From: a virus
Length of the DNA stretch: 25,845 nt
Virus record (IMG/VR): IMGVR_UViG_3300011116_000373
Span: 1 to 25,845 of that record
Strand: one strand, 5' to 3'
This document shows, piece after piece, positions 5,812-24,769 of the stretch. Both the position numbers and the translations under genes were made by a program. Position 1 is the first letter of the stretch, and each line of letters begins with the position of its first letter. The notes under the pieces are model-generated. The model saw only the letters and a program-made list of their open reading frames with translations. It did not search any database and had not been told where the DNA came from.

Positions 5812-6344
5812 CTACCTACTACGTTGCTTGGCTTTGTCCATTTCCTCGCGTTCGCGTTTGCCCTTTATCTCGTAGTACGCAGCAAAATGGATGAACTCTG
5901 CATCCGTCAATTCTTGCCGAAGCCGACTCACCGTCATGCCTAGCTCGGTAGCTAAAAACATTTCAAAGTAAAGCCAGCTATCGGCCTCTAGTCGTTTTTT
6001 GCTTCTTCCAGCGATTCCGGTCCACCAAGACCAAACAGGAATAGTTCCAGTTCGTTCAGAACTGATTCCGGCAATTCGCGTTGCAGTTTGGCTGCATCAG
6101 CTGGTGCAAAGGCTTTCTTGCCATCTTCCAGTTCAGCCATCTGGCACAGCAGCTGCGTGCTGATATCCAGCGCTTCATCAGTACCGGCAAGACCTGTTGC
6201 GCGTTTGCGGTCAGCTCTGGTAATCGGTTTGAAATAAAGCGATAGCACCACAGTGCCGTCTTCTTTCTTGATGTTGAATTGACGCCGCTGGTTAAGGTCA
6301 AAAGCCCCGGTGAGCAGATCAACGGGGCGTGAAGAGACAGGCAT
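5812..6344 (-). CDS. Tail assembly chaperone GT fusion, made by -1 ribosomal frameshift
   Basis: The G frame (6344 to 5988) is continued in the -1 frame by a 60-codon open stretch ending at TAG 5814-5812. The shift site is the canonical heptamer A AAA AAC (minus strand, 6000 to 5994), in phase with the G frame as GCA AAA AAC, two codons before the G stop. The added segment starts RLEADSWLYFEMFLATELGM and includes 'TDAEFIHFAAYYEIKGKRERE', like the T domains of many siphophage chaperones. The shifted product would be about 177 residues. In lambda-like phages G and GT at a fixed ratio bind tape measure and tube protein to guide tail assembly. The site and continuing frame are seen directly; that shifting occurs is inferred. 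Confidence 0.88.
5988..6344 (-). CDS. Tail assembly chaperone G-like, unshifted product
   Basis: A 118-residue protein between the major tail proteins and the tape measure, where phages of this type encode the tail chaperone. It has an N-terminal beta-rich part ('KKEDGTVVLSLYFKPITRAD') and an acidic C-terminus ending in EEAKND. It ends two codons after the A AAA AAC heptamer that gives the longer GT form. The ATG at 6344 overlaps the stop of the downstream-copy tail protein gene by one base, indicating coupling. It probably binds the tape measure before the tube polymerises. Confidence 0.9.
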   Translation of the reverse strand: MPVSSRPVDLLTGAFDLNQRRQFNIKKEDGTVVLSLYFKPITRADRKRATGLAGTDEALDISTQLLCQMAELEDGKKAFAPADAAKLQRELPESVLNELELFLFGLGGPESLEEAKND

Positions 6345-6763
6345 TAGATCGAGGTAGTAATGGCACCGTTCATGGTGAAGTTAACCGTCACCACTTCAAG
6401 CTCACCAACCGTAGCACTGTAATCAGTGGATGTGATCACAATGTTGCCGGTGATTTTCTTGCCGCCGGTTTCATCAAGATACAACTCAACAAAGGCGTTA
6501 CCTTCATCAGTTGCAGTATTGACATCCTTGATCAGGTCAAGTTTGTCGCCAGCGCTAGGGGCGTCGTACATGATTTCCATGCTGCCGCTACCTGCAATAA
6601 GGCCACCGATATTTGCCTTATAGGTTGCACCTTGAGCGGTAGTCTCAAGTACATCCTTTTCAACGGTCATTGACCAGGAACGCACGGCAGCAATTTCAGA
6701 AATGCCACCACTGCTGTCCTTATCAAAAAAGACCGTACCTTGTTCGCCGCGGTAAAAAGCCAT
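6344..6763 (-). CDS. Major tail protein paralog 2
   Basis: A 139-residue protein, about two-thirds identical by eye to the neighbouring 138-residue gene. The two share their first nine residues (MAFYRGEQG), the central block 'EKDVLETTA-GATYKANIGG', and 'DYSATVGELEV' near the end, and both end ITTSI. Length, beta-rich character and position (tail terminator, tube, chaperone, tape measure) identify tail tube proteins. It is separated from its twin by two bases. The differences concentrate in residues ~10-25, ~66-80 and ~105-112, likely loops. Which copy builds the tube, or whether they mix, cannot be read from the sequence. Confidence 0.88.
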   Translation of the reverse strand: MAFYRGEQGTVFFDKDSSGGISEIAAVRSWSMTVEKDVLETTAQGATYKANIGGLIAGSGSMEIMYDAPSAGDKLDLIKDVNTATDEGNAFVELYLDETGGKKITGNIVITSTDYSATVGELEVVTVNFTMNGAITTSI

Positions 6764-6765
6764 GA

Positions 6766-7182
6766 TCAGATGGAGGTAGTGATAGTGCCGCTGGTTACAA
6801 AGTTACAGGTAATAACCTCCAACTCACCAACGGTAGCGCTGTAGTCAGCAGAAGTGATCAAACCAGTAAAGCTGATCTTTTTGGTGCCAGTGGTATCCAG
6901 GAACAGTTCAAAGGTTGCCGTACCGCCATCAGTGGCAGTATTAGCAGCTTTGATGAAGGTATTGGTTTCATCAGCGCTACTGGCCGTGTACATGAGTTCA
7001 ACGCTGCCAGAACCAGCGATCAAGCCACCGATATTGGCTTTGTAAGTAGCGCCAAGAGCAGTAGTTTCCAGTACATCCTTTTCAATGGTCATCGACCATG
7101 ATCGGGTGGATGCAATGGTGGTATTAGCAGAACCAGCATCGTCAAATTTGACGGAGCCTTGTTCGCCTCGATAGAAAGCCAT
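6766..7182 (-). CDS. Major tail protein paralog 1
   Basis: A 138-residue tail tube protein, first of a tandem pair in the direction of transcription. It shares with its neighbour the N-terminus MAFYRGEQG, the motif RSWSMT-EKDVLETTA, and the C-terminus ITTSI. It follows the tail terminator gene by two bases. In siphophages this protein stacks as hexameric rings around the tape measure. Both copies are intact and neither shows decay, so both are probably used. Confidence 0.9.
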   Translation of the reverse strand: MAFYRGEQGSVKFDDAGSANTTIASTRSWSMTIEKDVLETTALGATYKANIGGLIAGSGSVELMYTASSADETNTFIKAANTATDGGTATFELFLDTTGTKKISFTGLITSADYSATVGELEVITCNFVTSGTITTSI

Positions 7183-8013: not shown

Positions 8014-8370
8014 TTATGCCCTCAAGATCAGCTCATAAACGATGGCTGTATTGTCTTGCTCAATAGTTTGAACCCAAATGATGTCATGGGTTACATTATT
8101 GATCAGCACCTTATCGGCTGTATTTGGTGCTGAAGCCACATCTGCTGCGGCAATGGTTAGCTTCTTGTCGCTTGCTTGCACTAGTTCGTTGACTTCACGT
8201 GCATTGACTGCATCCAGTACACCTTTGATGCTCGCATCAGCAGTGGTTTCTGCTATCACACCAGTGTTTGCGTTATAGGCGCCAACGGTCACAATGCGGA
8301 TCGTTGCATCACCGCCAAATTTGCTAGTCAACTTACTAGCAATTTTCCGTAGCGAGGATGCAAGTGCCAT
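8014..8370 (-). CDS. Probable head-tail stopper/adaptor protein
   Basis: A 118-residue protein with an N-terminal amphipathic helix (MALASSLRKIASKLTSKFGG) followed by a beta-rich body ending 'IVYELILRA'. Position between the connector and the gp10-like protein and overall layout match small head completion/stopper proteins. I see no decisive motif. Its ATG overlaps the stop of the upstream small gene (TGATG), and it ends two bases before the gp10-like start. Confidence 0.6.
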   Translation of the reverse strand: MALASSLRKIASKLTSKFGGDATIRIVTVGAYNANTGVIAETTADASIKGVLDAVNAREVNELVQASDKKLTIAAADVASAPNTADKVLINNVTHDIIWVQTIEQDNTAIVYELILRA

Positions 8371-8621
8371 CAGAGTTTATAGGCAATACAATGACCGTTT
8401 TGCAAAAGTAAACTGGTGAAGACGCCATAAATAATGGTGCCAGCATCAAATTGATGCCCATCTAATGCTGCACCATCCCAGTTCAGGACTGTAATGGCTT
8501 GAATGGTTGAATTGCTAGTGAAGTGCAAAGCGCAAAAACGGCCAGTGGCTGTTGAGCCATTTGCCACGAAGGTTGCACCTTTGGCATAGTCAACGCCATA
8601 AACAGCCGAGTAGTCGCTCAT
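8370..8621 (-). CDS. Small structural-module protein, paralog B
   Basis: An 83-residue protein. The open frame extends upstream to 8687, but the ATG at 8621 is chosen because it forms an ATGA overlap with the preceding gene and gives an MSD start like its twin. It shares with the 76-residue neighbour the start MSD, an internal TGRF, 'G-AL', and the C-terminal block GVFTS...AYKL. The pattern suggests a small beta-rich protein. I do not recognise a named family. Its place among head-tail joining genes suggests a capsid-associated or decoration role, which is inference. Confidence 0.75.
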   Translation of the reverse strand: MSDYSAVYGVDYAKGATFVANGSTATGRFCALHFTSNSTIQAITVLNWDGAALDGHQFDAGTIIYGVFTSLLLQNGHCIAYKL

Positions 8622-8848
8622 AGCTTGTATGCCACAACAGAACCACTGGCAAGCGTGATGCTGGTAAAGACACCGCACAACTCGCAACTAGGGTCAAGTT
8701 TGACGGAAGTCAATGCATTGCCGGTGTAATCCATTGCCGTCAGGCTGGCAATCACAGTGCCAGCTTCAAGCGATACAATCTCACCAAAGCGGCCAGTATG
8801 AGCAGCTGTGTCTTTGATGTATTCAGCACCTGCGTATTCGTCGCTCAT
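8618..8848 (-). CDS. Small structural-module protein, paralog A
   Basis: A 76-residue protein, MSDEYAGAEYIKDTAAHTGR and onward, ending SVVAYKL. It is paralogous to the gene just downstream: both have MSD at the N-terminus, TGRF, a threonine-rich strand, G-x-AL, GVFTS, and end AYKL. It contains two close cysteines (CELC), which the twin lacks at that point. It overlaps the connector gene stop by 4 bp and the twin start by 4 bp. Function unknown; a small capsid-surface or neck protein is plausible from context. Confidence 0.75.
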   Translation of the reverse strand: MSDEYAGAEYIKDTAAHTGRFGEIVSLEAGTVIASLTAMDYTGNALTSVKLDPSCELCGVFTSITLASGSVVAYKL

Positions 8849-17677: not shown

Positions 17678-18718
17678 TTAGTTGCGAATTTGAACTGGCA
17701 TAACGAGATATGTTTGTCCTTCTACGTTAGCTGGCGTTAACACTACAGGAGTTGTAGCGGTGTTGGCGGATAGTGTAACAGATTGATGGCCTTTGAAGGC
17801 TTTAAGGCCATCGAGGAGGTAGTGGACATTAAATGCCCAGGTGCCAGAACCAGTGGCTTCAACTTTAAGAAGCTCCTTGCCGTTGTTGGCATCAGCTTCA
17901 GCGGTAATGGCAATAGTGCTATTGACGAGTTCAAGTTTGATGACTGAGTTATGGGCTTCAGCGATCAATGCAACACGCTCTAGGGCACGGGTCAAACGGT
18001 GACGATCAGCGGTGATGGTGTTTTTGAAGCTGGCGGGGATAAGTGCTGCCACGTCAGGGTATTTGCCATCGAGGATGCGGCTGTAGAGGGTGATGCCATC
18101 TTCGGTGGTAATGACAGCCTGGCCGCGTGCGTGAGCAATGGTGACGGTTTGATCCTGCAGAAGACGCATGGTGCTGGCTGGCAGTACCAGATCAAGGCCA
18201 TCAGGCAGGTCAATCGCCATACGCATAAGGCGATGGCCGTCAGTGGCTTCCATGTAACCAGCGGCAAGGTGAATACCAGCTAGGAGCGCCTTGCTGATAT
18301 CAGTGCTGCAGCATGGAAGACAGGCACGAACACCAGCAGACAGCATCAGCTCAGTGCCATCAGCCTCGACCACTGGCAATGCGGGGTAATCCTCCGCATC
18401 CATCGCTGCAAGGCCGTACGTGCCGCTAGAGGCCGTCAAGCCCCCATCGTGGAGGGTGACCACCTCGCCATCCTCAAAGCGGCTCACAAGCCCCGCTAGC
18501 AGCCTGTGCGGTAACGCAACGGTGCCGGGTGTCTCGACTGCTGCCGGGATGGTGACGCTGATGCCAAGGTCGAGGTTGAAGCCGGTGACGGTCATAGCAC
18601 CATCGGCGGCAGCAATCAGGCAACAGCTGAGTATGGGGTGGCTGGTGTTGGTGGCAATAGCAGGTGCAATGGTGCGTAAGGCGTGAGTGAGGTCGCCTTG
18701 TGTGGTGATGAGTTTCAT
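17678..18718 (-). CDS. dnaN: DNA polymerase III sliding clamp (beta subunit)
   Basis: A 346-residue beta clamp, slightly shorter than the usual ~365-375. The three clamp domains can be followed: N-terminal 'HALRTIAPAIATNTSHPILSCCLI', middle 'AGIHLAAGYMEATDGHRLMRM' (the conserved TDGHRL motif), 'YSRILDGKYPD', and the C-terminal 'QTYLVMPVQIRN', equivalent to the YVIMPMRL end. It would clamp a polymerase to DNA and bind other partners via its hydrophobic pocket. A phage-encoded clamp lying directly before the terminase genes is unusual; it may hijack the host Pol III. No phage DNA polymerase is seen in this window. Confidence 0.93.
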   Translation of the reverse strand: MKLITTQGDLTHALRTIAPAIATNTSHPILSCCLIAAADGAMTVTGFNLDLGISVTIPAAVETPGTVALPHRLLAGLVSRFEDGEVVTLHDGGLTASSGTYGLAAMDAEDYPALPVVEADGTELMLSAGVRACLPCCSTDISKALLAGIHLAAGYMEATDGHRLMRMAIDLPDGLDLVLPASTMRLLQDQTVTIAHARGQAVITTEDGITLYSRILDGKYPDVAALIPASFKNTITADRHRLTRALERVALIAEAHNSVIKLELVNSTIAITAEADANNGKELLKVEATGSGTWAFNVHYLLDGLKAFKGHQSVTLSANTATTPVVLTPANVEGQTYLVMPVQIRN

Positions 18719-21748: not shown

Positions 21749-21919
21749 ATGAATCCGATTTATCGCATCACATACCAACGCCCTTGGGGCGAATGTGTGG
21801 TCAACACCACTCAATTTGCTGACGAGGCAGAGTTGCATATTGGTTTTGCAAGGTCATACAAAGGATGCGAGCTTCTCAAAATTGAAGATGTAACCAAAGA
21901 GTATTTACCGGAATCATGA
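21749..21919 (+). CDS. Small unknown protein, first gene of the plus operon
   Basis: A 56-residue protein found by hand: MNPIYRITYQRPWGECVVNT, then 'TQFADEAELHIGFARSYKGCELLKIEDVTKEYLPES'. It reads as a small alpha/beta protein, probably one strand pair, a helix and a strand. Its stop overlaps the IbrA-like start (ATGA), so it could serve as a coupled leader gene. The family is not recognised. It is 31 bp downstream of the promoter-like element. Confidence 0.75.
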   Translation: MNPIYRITYQRPWGECVVNTTQFADEAELHIGFARSYKGCELLKIEDVTKEYLPES

Positions 21920-23235
21920 GCAGAACCTATCTAAAACAGAATGTGTATGACGCTTCTATGGAGCGCCTTGATTTTATCTTTGAGCATTTCACGCGGGTTT
22001 ACGTTTCGTTTTCTGGCGGCAAAGACAGCGGCGTTCTTCTGAATCTTGTCTGCGATTACATAAGAGATCGCAAGCTGTCAGTCAAGGTCGGCGTCCAAAT
22101 CATGGACAATGAAGCCAACTACAACCACAGCAAGGAGTTCATGCATCGCATCCTCGAAGCCAACCACGACATCCTGGACATCTATTGGTGCTGCCTCCCC
22201 ATCACACTGCCTTGCACTGTCAGCTCTTATGAAATCGACTGGCAATGTTGGGGCGAAGCTGATCGTCATCGTTGGATTCAACCTATGCCGCAGCAAGATT
22301 ACATTGTGAACCTGGAAAACCACCCTTTTGGCGATTTGTTTATTGAAAACATGGACTACGCCACTTTCTGGGACATGTTCGCTGAGTGGTATAGCCAGGG
22401 TGAGCCGTGCGCCAACCTAATCGGTATCCGCACTGTTGAGTCGCTAAACCGATTCCGGGCAATTCTGAACCAAGACAAGGAAACCATGCTCGGACGCATG
22501 TGGACTAAGAAAAACACGGCGCATACCTACAACTGCTATCCAATCTATGATTGGCGCACGGAAGACATTTGGACCGCTAACGCCAAGTTTGGGTGGGATT
22601 ACAACAAGCTCTATGACGTGTTTTACATGGCTGGCATCCCGATCAAAAAAATGCGAGTTGCCTCGCCGTTTATGTCAGAGTCCAAATCCAGCCTCGCCAT
22701 GTATCGGGTAATCGATCCGCAAATCTGGGCAAGACTTTGCGCCAGGGTTGGCGGTGCCAACTTTATGGCTACCTATGGCAAACAACTTGATTACAAATCC
22801 TTCAGGTTGCCGCCAGGCCATACTTGGAAATCTTTTGTTAAGTTTCTGTTGGCTACATTGCCGGACCAGTCAAACGCAAATTTTAAGCAGCGCTTCATCC
22901 AGTCAATCCGTTACTGGGGCAGGGTGGGGCGCGGTCTTCCTGAGACCATTATTGAAGCTCTTGATCGTATCGGCATTCGCTTCTACATTAATGGCATTAC
23001 GCTTCATGGTGGCAACAACCTGCGCCGTGTTGTGATCAAGGTGCCACCTGATCACCTTGATGATTTGCCATGCCACAACAGCATGGTTACATCGTGGAAG
23101 CGGTTTGCAATCACCGTGCTCAAGAACGACCACACTTGCAAATACCTTGGTTTAGCTCCAACACAAGAGCAACAGCGCCGCCAAAAATCAATCCAACGCA
23201 AGTACAGCCAAGTCCTTAACCGTTCTGCCAAATGA
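21916..23235 (+). CDS. IbrA-like PP-loop protein (PAPS reductase family with DUF3440-like region)
   Basis: A 439-residue protein. The PP-loop SGGKDS at 33-38 binds ATP/phosphate in the PAPS reductase/ATP-pyrophosphatase family. Then follow 'GIRTVESLNRFRAIL' and 'NCYPIYDWRTEDIWTANAKFGWDYNKLYDVFYMAGIPIKKMRVASPF', 'WARLCARVGGANFMATYG' and 'LPPGHTWKSFVKFLL', which I recognise from the DUF3440/IbrA group. The last 50 residues contain 'TSWKRFAITVLKNDH' and an Arg/Lys/Gln-rich end. IbrA and IbrB were described as regulators of immunoglobulin-binding proteins in E. coli, and pairs like this occur in phages and mobile elements. The reaction is unknown; true sulphate reduction is unlikely since no other assimilation genes are present. 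Confidence 0.88.
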   Translation: MSRTYLKQNVYDASMERLDFIFEHFTRVYVSFSGGKDSGVLLNLVCDYIRDRKLSVKVGVQIMDNEANYNHSKEFMHRILEANHDILDIYWCCLPITLPCTVSSYEIDWQCWGEADRHRWIQPMPQQDYIVNLENHPFGDLFIENMDYATFWDMFAEWYSQGEPCANLIGIRTVESLNRFRAILNQDKETMLGRMWTKKNTAHTYNCYPIYDWRTEDIWTANAKFGWDYNKLYDVFYMAGIPIKKMRVASPFMSESKSSLAMYRVIDPQIWARLCARVGGANFMATYGKQLDYKSFRLPPGHTWKSFVKFLLATLPDQSNANFKQRFIQSIRYWGRVGRGLPETIIEALDRIGIRFYINGITLHGGNNLRRVVIKVPPDHLDDLPCHNSMVTSWKRFAITVLKNDHTCKYLGLAPTQEQQRRQKSIQRKYSQVLNRSAK

Positions 23236-24173
23236 AAATCTTTAACGCCGCCCAGCTTTCCAGTGACCGCTTTGTTCAATGTCCTCGCGGTGGCTTTACC
23301 AGTCATCGCCTTGTCATAGAAACTGATGGCATGGGCTACAGCATGACCAAAACCGTCATTCACCCTGGCAAGCCGCATCGTTGGCATTATCAACACCACC
23401 TTGAAACCTGCTATTGCGTCAGCGGAAAAGGTTTGTTAATCAATGAAGCAACACAAGAAATCGTCGCGGTAGGCCCTGACGTGACCTACGTACTCGACAA
23501 GCACGATGCTCACACATTTGAAGCATTGGAGCCCACTACGTTGATCTGTGTTTTTAATCCACCTCTTAAGGGAGACGAGTTGCACGATGCAAACGATTCT
23601 TATCCTTGGCGATCCCCGGTCTACTCTGTACGCAGCATTCCTATCGAGAAAGTTACCGCCAACGATTACAACCCCAATTCTGTGGCGCCGCCTGAAATGG
23701 CACTACTCGAAACATCGATTTGGGAAGACGGCTACACACAACCTGTCGTTGTCGTGCATGATATCGAACGCGACCTTTATGTGGTCGTTGACGGTTTTCA
23801 CCGATACTTGACCCTTAAGAACAGCCAACGCATTCGTGAGCGCGAAGGTGGTCGATTGCCAGTTGTTGTGCTTCGCAAGGAATTGCACGACCGTATGGCG
23901 TCAACCATCCGCCACAATCGTGCTCGCGGCTCGCACAACATCGAGCTGATGAGTGTGATCGTTGCTGAGCTGATTGAGATGGGCAAGGGCGACGCATGGA
24001 TCTGTAAGCACATCGGCATGAGCCCTGATGAGCTGTTGCGCCTTAAACAAGTGACTGGCCTTGCATCCCTGTTCCTTGGCAAAGATTTCAGCAAAGCATG
24101 GGACGTAGAGCAAATTAACAACGTGACGGAGGATCTTGAGCGTGAAGCTGAAGAGGATCTGGTTGCCCATTGA
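23232..24173 (+). CDS. Fusion of ectoine-synthase-like cupin and IbrB-like ParB/sulfiredoxin-fold protein
   Basis: A 313-residue protein overlapping the IbrA-like stop (ATGA). Residues 1-~126 match ectoine synthase (EctC): DGMGYS (32-37), WHYQHHLETCYCVSGKG (51-67), LDKHDAHTF (88-96), CVFNPPLKGDELH (106-118) and SYP. Residues equivalent to the EctC metal ligands as I recall them (Glu57, Tyr85, His93) are kept as Glu58, Tyr86 and His94, as are Cys106 and Phe108. Residues ~131-313 form an IbrB-like ParB domain with DYNPN (145-149), DGFHRY (187-192), RHNRARGSH (227-235), and a C-terminal HTH-like region 'DAWICKHIGMSPDELLRLKQVTGLASLF'. No ectA or ectB is present, so the cupin probably acts on something else or as a sensor. 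Confidence 0.88.
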   Translation: MKIFNAAQLSSDRFVQCPRGGFTSHRLVIETDGMGYSMTKTVIHPGKPHRWHYQHHLETCYCVSGKGLLINEATQEIVAVGPDVTYVLDKHDAHTFEALEPTTLICVFNPPLKGDELHDANDSYPWRSPVYSVRSIPIEKVTANDYNPNSVAPPEMALLETSIWEDGYTQPVVVVHDIERDLYVVVDGFHRYLTLKNSQRIREREGGRLPVVVLRKELHDRMASTIRHNRARGSHNIELMSVIVAELIEMGKGDAWICKHIGMSPDELLRLKQVTGLASLFLGKDFSKAWDVEQINNVTEDLEREAEEDLVAH

Positions 24174-24567
24174 TACCTGGGAAGAGATCGGTTTCAACAT
24201 GTGGGGCGACGTGGCCAATCGTCGCCTCTACTTACAAAGGGCTGAGATCTTCACCGGTAATCATCGCCTTTACGGGCGTTATATGCAGCGGGTCACATTT
24301 AAGTGGCCCAACAGTTGCATCAATGCACTAACTGACTACAACCTAAACCGCAAGGCATGGATCGGGCACGCAGCTTGCGCGCTGGCCCTTCGGTGCCCTG
24401 AAGACATTACACGACAAGCCTGGGGGCTATTAACCGATGAGCAACGGATTCTGGCGAACCGCCAAGCAGAGAGAGCCATTCAGTCCTGGGAGGTGCGCTA
24501 CAGACAGAGTCTCGGAATACGTGCGGACGTGGCAAGCCCGTTGTTATTTGCACGAGATTCCCGATGA
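24142..24567 (+). CDS. Unknown protein of the IbrA/EctC-ParB operon
   Basis: A 141-residue protein. GTG 24142 is chosen because GGAGG (24128-24132) is 9 bases upstream; the TTG at 24136 is too close to it. It overlaps the previous gene by 32 bp. The sequence starts MKLKRIWLPIDTWEEIGFNM and includes 'WPNSCINALTDYNLNRKAWIGHAACALALRCPEDITRQAWGLLTDEQRILANRQAERAI'. The many Trp, Cys and His residues and the even composition indicate a folded helical protein. I do not recognise a named family, but the gene sits in the Ibr-like locus and likely works with it. Confidence 0.8.
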   Translation: MKLKRIWLPIDTWEEIGFNMWGDVANRRLYLQRAEIFTGNHRLYGRYMQRVTFKWPNSCINALTDYNLNRKAWIGHAACALALRCPEDITRQAWGLLTDEQRILANRQAERAIQSWEVRYRQSLGIRADVASPLLFARDSR

Positions 24568-24769
24568 GATACCCCCAAAAGTGGCAACGTCCGGCCGCGC
24601 ACCATCGTGGCGTGCAGTTGCCATTGCGTTGCTGCAGAACGATTTACACCTTTATCAGTTGGGCTATGCAAGACCTGCATACGACCAGCAACGCCGTGCT
24701 GTAAGCCTGGCGCAGATCGCCGTGCATGGCGCCCCGGCTGATGGCACACAATTGGAGCTACCGCTATGA
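24437..24769 (+). CDS. Small protein sharing the C-terminal motif of the IbrA-like protein
   Basis: A 110-residue protein if the ATG at 24437 is used, which overlaps the previous gene by 131 bp; a GTG at 24521 (82 residues) is a plausible alternative since recognisable sequence starts around 'YVRTWQARCYLHEIPDEIPP'. Residues 56-87, 'PSWRAVAIALLQNDL...LG...QQRR', parallel the 'TSWKRFAITVLKNDH...LG...QQRR' end of the IbrA-like protein. The C-terminus ends in TQLELPL. Its stop overlaps the helicase ATG. It may compete or cooperate with the IbrA-like tail; function unknown. Confidence 0.75.
   Translation: MSNGFWRTAKQREPFSPGRCATDRVSEYVRTWQARCYLHEIPDEIPPKVATSGRAPSWRAVAIALLQNDLHLYQLGYARPAYDQQRRAVSLAQIAVHGAPADGTQLELPL

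Follow-up and report, generated by a model that had tools for sequence, protein, structure and literature searches.

What does an ectoine synthase (EctC)-like cupin do when it is joined to a ParB-type domain in a phage genome? The window analysed here is the whole of the 25,845-base IMG/VR virus record IMGVR_UViG_3300011116_000373 (positions 1 to 25,845). An intact open reading frame in it encodes the EctC domain first and an IbrB-type ParB domain second, with the IbrA gene directly 5'; the stop codon of IbrA and the start codon of the fusion gene overlap as ATGA (Table 1). Other open reading frames of the window include replication genes, namely a VapE-type primase-polymerase and a DnaN-like phage DNA polymerase III beta clamp, the latter adjoining the terminase genes (17678-18718, minus strand). 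The structural region, on the same strand, contains two tandem pairs of small, similar genes at 6344-7182 (6344-6763 with 6766-7182) and 8370-8848 (8370-8687 with 8618-8848).

The fusion is genuine. A total of 225 IMG/VR stretches matched the fusion protein, and the loci retrieved yielded 121 complete fused copies; these copies, together with the same fusion in the independently sequenced Mycobacterium phages Gaia and Nebkiss, rule out the assembly error that the earlier note had named as a possible source, as well as a chance join. In the Pseudoalteromonas phage XCL1123 the EctC and IbrB proteins are encoded by adjacent, separate genes. No plasmid record matched the fusion protein over more than 80% of its length. 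The combination had been thought to lack a described role; in GenBank the Gaia and XCL1123 proteins already carry the label 'ectoine synthase/ParB multidomain protein', with no function given.

Table 1 Features of the module in the window.
Feature	Position	Strand	Remarks
IbrA	21916..23235	+	PP-loop ATPase/PAPS-reductase-like, DUF3440; SFSGGKDSG motif intact
EctC:IbrB fusion protein	23232..24173	+	313 aa
EctC-like iron-cupin domain	23232..23609	+	Residues 1-126; assigned by PF06339, fold match and residue conservation
Predicted iron ligand E58	23403-23405	+
Predicted iron ligand Y86	23487-23489	+
Predicted iron ligand H94	23511-23513	+
F22	23295-23297	+	In place of Trp21
T39	23346-23348	+	In place of Asn38
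IbrB-type ParB domain	23610..24173	+	Residues 127-313
X1	24142..24567	+	141 aa, all-helical; GTG start at 24142, or alternatively TTG at 24136
X2	about 24521..24769	+	About 82 aa; in-frame ATG further upstream at 24437

The proteins and the active site of the EctC domain

Residues 11-126 score 123.4 bits against the Ectoine_synth profile PF06339 (E 8.9e-36, cut-off 27) and only 23.7 against the generic Cupin_2 profile, and the domain exceeds the cut-off of the NCBIfam ectoine synthase model PRK13290 (130.8 against 128 bits). Among PDB sequences, the fusion protein most closely matches ectoine synthases of solved structure. The predicted fold best matches one of them, 5bxx (TM 0.93, rmsd 1.3), with the metal-site residues kept. 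The close resemblance of the first ~126 residues to EctC, including equivalents of the metal ligands and of C106 and F108, had been noticed from the letters of the sequence and is borne out by both profile and model.

Active-site positions were taken from the PlEctC structures (PMC6344544) and followed through an alignment of 94 diverse EctCs from the gene module described below. The equivalents of the iron ligands Glu57, Tyr84 and His92 are retained in 94, 94 and 93 of these sequences, respectively. S24, R26, T41 and Y53, which correspond to Ser23, Arg25, Thr40 and Tyr52, are present in all 94, F108 (Phe106) in 93, and the lid residues E116, H118 and Y124 are also kept. The dN/dS ratio is about 0.05 for the EctC part and 0.02 for IbrB. 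In contrast, none of the 94 module EctCs has Trp at the position of Trp21, a residue kept without exception among 437 bona fide EctCs (PMC6344544) and present in 22 of 22 bona fide sequences compared here; Phe, Gly or another residue takes its place, in the window Phe22, a point absent from the earlier note. The Trp21Ala variant of PlEctC retains 9.7% activity (PMC6344544). At the position of Asn38, a residue in contact with the substrate carboxylate, the module EctCs vary (Thr, His, Met, Cys), and His is found in certain bona fide EctCs too. The loss of Trp21 and the variability at Asn38 argue for an altered substrate. The sampled bona fide EctCs form a clade separate from the module EctCs (tree support 1.0). 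Neither the 211 module loci nor the window as a whole contains a homologue of EctA or EctB, and thus no route to normal ectoine, in agreement with the earlier view that ectoine production is unlikely. Judging from these residues, the module EctC is probably an iron-dependent cyclodehydratase that is catalytic, though not on the usual substrate.

The IbrB part matches the ParB-like family phrog_2159 with 261 bits and contains the DGFHR and RHNRARGSH motifs, which are almost invariant across the family. Its scores against PF02195 (22.8 bits, cut-off 26.3) and the ParB model TIGR00180 (17.3 bits, cut-off 58.45) fall short. Three modelled helices (237-249, 254-261 and 265-275) occupy the location of the ParB helix-turn-helix; most of the modelled part has a pLDDT of about 57-79, and the last ~30 C-terminal residues are of low confidence. 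Weak profile matches to SbnI and SerK, small-molecule kinases of the ParB/Srx fold, were also obtained.

IbrA scores 181 bits against PF11922, 36 against PF01507 and 360 against phrog_2302. The nearest match to a known system is DndC, by weak profile matches (E 7e-07), and comparison of the IbrA profile with the PDB gave PP-loop matches only, all insignificant (E 0.17 or worse). A DUF3440/PAPS-reductase protein adjoining a ParB-like protein, with overlapping genes, places the locus among the IbrA-IbrB systems, which mostly lack EctC. X1 is modelled by AF2 with a pLDDT of 91.5 and belongs to no family in Pfam or PHROG. Its fold has no Foldseek match in the PDB (best E 2.7), and VIA-align Z values did not exceed 3.5, a measure that is uninformative for a helical protein. 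X2 is a homologue of the C-terminal part of IbrA/DUF3440, as seen from phrog_15645 and weak DUF3440 matches; its iterated profile also matches IbrA C-termini. The X2 stop overlaps the start of a helicase gene (ATGA). None of IbrB, X1 and EctC matched a defence system in PADLOC.

A five-gene module with shuffled order

The fusion represents one form of a phage module made up of five genes, IbrA, EctC, IbrB, X1 and X2. A scan based on EctC combined with open reading frame analysis identified nine loci with an unfused EctC beside IbrA and with IbrB elsewhere in the cluster. Independently, an IMG/VR scan with an IbrA-clade profile found EctC beside IbrA in 79 of 80 loci, a proportion to be read with the knowledge that the scan patterns LDNEANY and LDVYWCC favour the IbrA clade that is accompanied by EctC. 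The commonest order in these loci is IbrA-EctC-IbrB-X1-X2 (45/80), followed by X1-X2-IbrA-EctC-IbrB (9/80), IbrA-EctC-X1-X2-IbrB (5/80) and IbrB-X1-X2-IbrA-EctC (4/80), the remainder being other shuffles of the same genes. EctC and IbrB are fused in only eight of the 80. Thus, gene order is shuffled while the gene set is kept together, and beyond the five genes no neighbour family is present in more than 17 of 93 dereplicated loci. From these two observations it follows that the five genes travel as a set; the module is self-contained and mobile among phages of unrelated hosts. The recognisable recurrent neighbours resemble replication and recombination genes (helicases, SSB, Erf and YqaJ).

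The protein that EctC follows most closely is IbrA. IbrAs accompanied by EctC are at least 60% identical among themselves and at most 48% identical to IbrAs without it, and in the IbrA tree the 95 tips with EctC form one clade (support 0.92, branch 0.75), the sole member lacking EctC being locus L279. Fixed differences distinguish the two groups; residue 68, for example, is Asn in the clade with EctC and Gln in IbrAs without it. X1 shares this distribution, occurring in 34 of 35 IbrA representatives with EctC and in one of 63 without; distant relatives of X1 adjoin IbrA in two phages without EctC, Amjad_SA and Mwe-JY13. Pairwise EctC distances correlate with those of IbrA (Spearman rho 0.47, permuted maximum 0.13) but not with those of IbrB (0.17, permuted maximum 0.17), and therefore the protein to which EctC is fused is not the one it co-varies with most closely. 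The earlier note had taken the fusion to the ParB domain as the key feature of the locus, a view that the mostly separate EctC genes of the IbrA scan and the co-variation with IbrA instead of IbrB do not support; X1 and X2 did not figure in it as module genes.

Several loci depart from the common gene content. In L279 the module is otherwise kept and a 1-Cys peroxiredoxin gene (L279:3868-4617) stands at the place of EctC. L271 contains only a degenerate EctC-like cupin, followed, still within the module, by a 1-Cys peroxiredoxin gene (L271:5519-6181). In both cases, the peroxiredoxin is an alternative third component beside a protein of the ParB/sulfiredoxin fold. An EctC-less stretch of a Desulfuromonadales MAG contig (L153:5682-8516), which holds X1, X2, IbrA, a possible GNAT-like gene (weak match) and IbrB, may represent a parallel form of the module. 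GIY-YIG-like endonuclease genes located between module genes in L322 (4395-5147) and in phage Nebkiss (gene 105) are probably homing insertions.

Four modules (L110, L237, L321 and L135), not including that of the window, contain an EctD-like dioxygenase. Against the ectoine hydroxylase model TIGR02408 (cut-off 336.5) these proteins score 173, 189, 285 and 371, respectively. The L135 protein has the exact EctD signature F-x-WHSDFETWH-x-EDG-M/L-P (PMC5924519), and the other three have Trp at its first position. An IMG/VR scan for EctD motifs yielded three relatives, all three inside EctC modules. In L110 the EctD-like gene is followed by a triple fusion of EctC, a methyltransferase-like domain (weak Pfam matches) and IbrB in a single 499-residue open reading frame (L110:6001-7500); L237 has the same methyltransferase-like domain as a separate gene. 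Of all the evidence, the EctD-like partners point most strongly to ectoine-type ring chemistry as what the module carries out. Of the two roles that the earlier note had offered, a small-molecule sensor or a new cyclising/dehydrating enzyme, the enzyme is favoured over a dead domain by the residues invariant among the 94 sequences, the low dN/dS and these partners, and the sensor is weakened by the hydroxylase-like proteins of the four modules.

Proposed function and its alternatives

The best explanation, advanced tentatively and at a little less than an even chance, is that the module EctC forms a ring of the ectoine type, not from free N-gamma-acetyl-diaminobutyrate but on a different substrate prepared by IbrA, with IbrB positioning the enzymes on DNA. 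In this scheme, we infer the catalysis itself, the order of the steps and the nucleic-acid target; the target, taken alone, is held with about the same reserve, or slightly more. IbrA, as a DndC/PAPS-reductase-like PP-loop ATPase, would use ATP to activate a carbonyl or carboxyl group and build the substrate, assisted by X1 and X2. EctC would then close a cyclic amidine ring with loss of water, and IbrB, as a predicted NTP-binding protein, would recruit or position the enzymes on DNA. This last step is suggested by the ParB/Srx fold and by the precedent of DpdB, a ParB-like ATPase that works with DpdA, and of DndB, the ParB-superfamily protein of the Dnd system (PMC12839542). In some modules the EctD-like dioxygenase would hydroxylate the ring, and methylation is possible too. 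A link to DNA is also favoured by the DndC matches of IbrA and by the helicase, SSB, Erf and YqaJ neighbours, the location by replication genes being weak evidence because the early regions of phages are rich in unrelated genes. Against the scheme as a whole stand the IbrA-IbrB systems without EctC, which are the majority, the ParB score of IbrB below the Pfam cut-off together with its modest model confidence, and L279 with a peroxiredoxin gene at the place of EctC. A more specific form, phage nucleic-acid hypermodification, appears possible but rather doubtful: IbrA and IbrB would add an amino-acid-like side chain to DNA, EctC would turn it into a tetrahydropyrimidine resembling ectoine, and the EctD-like and methyltransferase-like proteins would decorate it. 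If so, generic IbrAB pairs would make a simpler version, which would account for a system found in hundreds of phages and plasmids.

A serious rival to DNA modification, though on balance unlikely, is a product that stays free: a small molecule with an ectoine-like ring, derived from a nucleotide or an amino acid, that would serve as a signal, a superinfection factor or a counter-defence agent. The usual substrates of EctC and EctD are free small molecules, in the case of EctD free ectoine, and the L135 protein, which scores above the equivalog cut-off, also fits a free ectoine-like product. The kinases SbnI and SerK among the ParB/Srx-fold relatives point the same way, whereas the helices at the DNA-binding location of the IbrB model and DndC as the nearest known-system match of IbrA do not. 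Control by metabolite binding, in which the cupin would act through IbrB as an NTP switch on IbrA or on phage gene expression, is quite unlikely. Cupins are often sensor domains, IbrAB is annotated as 'co-activator of prophage gene expression' and many loci do fuse EctC to IbrB, but EctC is mostly a separate gene in the loci of the IbrA scan, its divergence does not follow that of IbrB, it retains every catalytic residue, those of the lid among them, and tailoring enzymes of the EctD type fit catalysis better.

Osmoprotection has been the published reading of viral ectoine genes in two 2026 virome papers (PMC13079714 and PMC13288924): EctC, with EctD in some phages, would convert host N-gamma-acetyl-diaminobutyrate to free ectoine or hydroxyectoine and shield the infected cell from salt stress. 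The high EctC profile scores and the L135 EctD score agree with it. Nevertheless it is improbable here, given the lack of EctA and EctB in all 211 loci, the absence of Trp at the Trp21 position in all 94 module EctCs, a residue whose change to Ala leaves PlEctC 9.7% of its activity, and the near-constant linkage to IbrA, IbrB, X1 and X2, which has no part in such a role. The module context also argues against the assignment of the XCL1123 IbrA as a sulfur-cycle gene (PMC10232697). Least probable is an inactive EctC scaffold that stabilises IbrA or IbrB; L279 and L271 indicate that EctC is not always essential, but the iron ligands are invariant or nearly so in the 94 sequences and dN/dS is about 0.05.

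Relation to known systems

The module EctC shares the fold, the metal-site residues, the further active-site residues listed above and the lid with the EctCs of PF06339/PRK13290, such as PlEctC and SaEctC. It differs in the Trp21 and Asn38 positions, in its separate clade and in being found without ectA and ectB and always with IbrA where the contig allows. Bacterial orphan EctCs (Czech et al. 2018, PMC5924519) likewise lack ectAB; however, they keep the Trp, sometimes shifted by two residues, and the module EctCs do not, having instead a fixed IbrA partner. In the IbrA-IbrB (YbdN/YbdM) pairs known from phages, plasmids and prophages both proteins recur, as a rule encoded by neighbouring genes that overlap; most of these pairs lack EctC, X1 and X2 and are set apart by the IbrA identity gap and by fixed differences such as that at residue 68. 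The module is a variant of this widespread phage type with a real chance of new modification chemistry. With DndB-DndC and DpdA-DpdB it has in common the pairing of a modifying enzyme with a ParB-like NTP-binding protein, a remote likeness, as those systems lack EctC/EctD-like chemistry. DndA, DndD and DndE were not seen with the module, and the neighbours in the 93 loci include no constant Dnd partner set, since no family beyond the five genes is common to them.

A search of the accessible literature, with bioRxiv and most subscription papers lying outside it, returned no description of the five-gene module, and the main text of a 2025 survey of ParB-fold fusions mentions no cupin, ectoine or IbrB (PMC12704722). 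The present findings recast viral 'ectoine synthase' genes as parts of a conserved module that is probably unrelated to osmoprotection, and the common IbrA-IbrB pair gains a biochemical lead in cyclic amidine formation and hydroxylation. The cultured carriers Gaia, Nebkiss and XCL1123 make the DNA-modification idea directly testable.

Two further candidate relationships were rejected. A screen of 401 Mycobacteriaceae genomes for a link to the orphan EctCs of that family, and to a 'cysteine dioxygenase' cupin present in M. abscessus prophages (PMC8092301), gave bona-fide-type scores only (best 121 bits) and thus showed no link. A scan of viral contigs for canonical EctC, which used two short patterns and is thus weak evidence of absence, returned one locus, itself a module. 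The sequence filed in GenBank as 'Bacteriophage sp.' (L086, MT835761.1), which served as a bona fide control, carries a bacterial ectBC fragment with an NRPS-like gene and is likely bacterial contamination labelled as phage.
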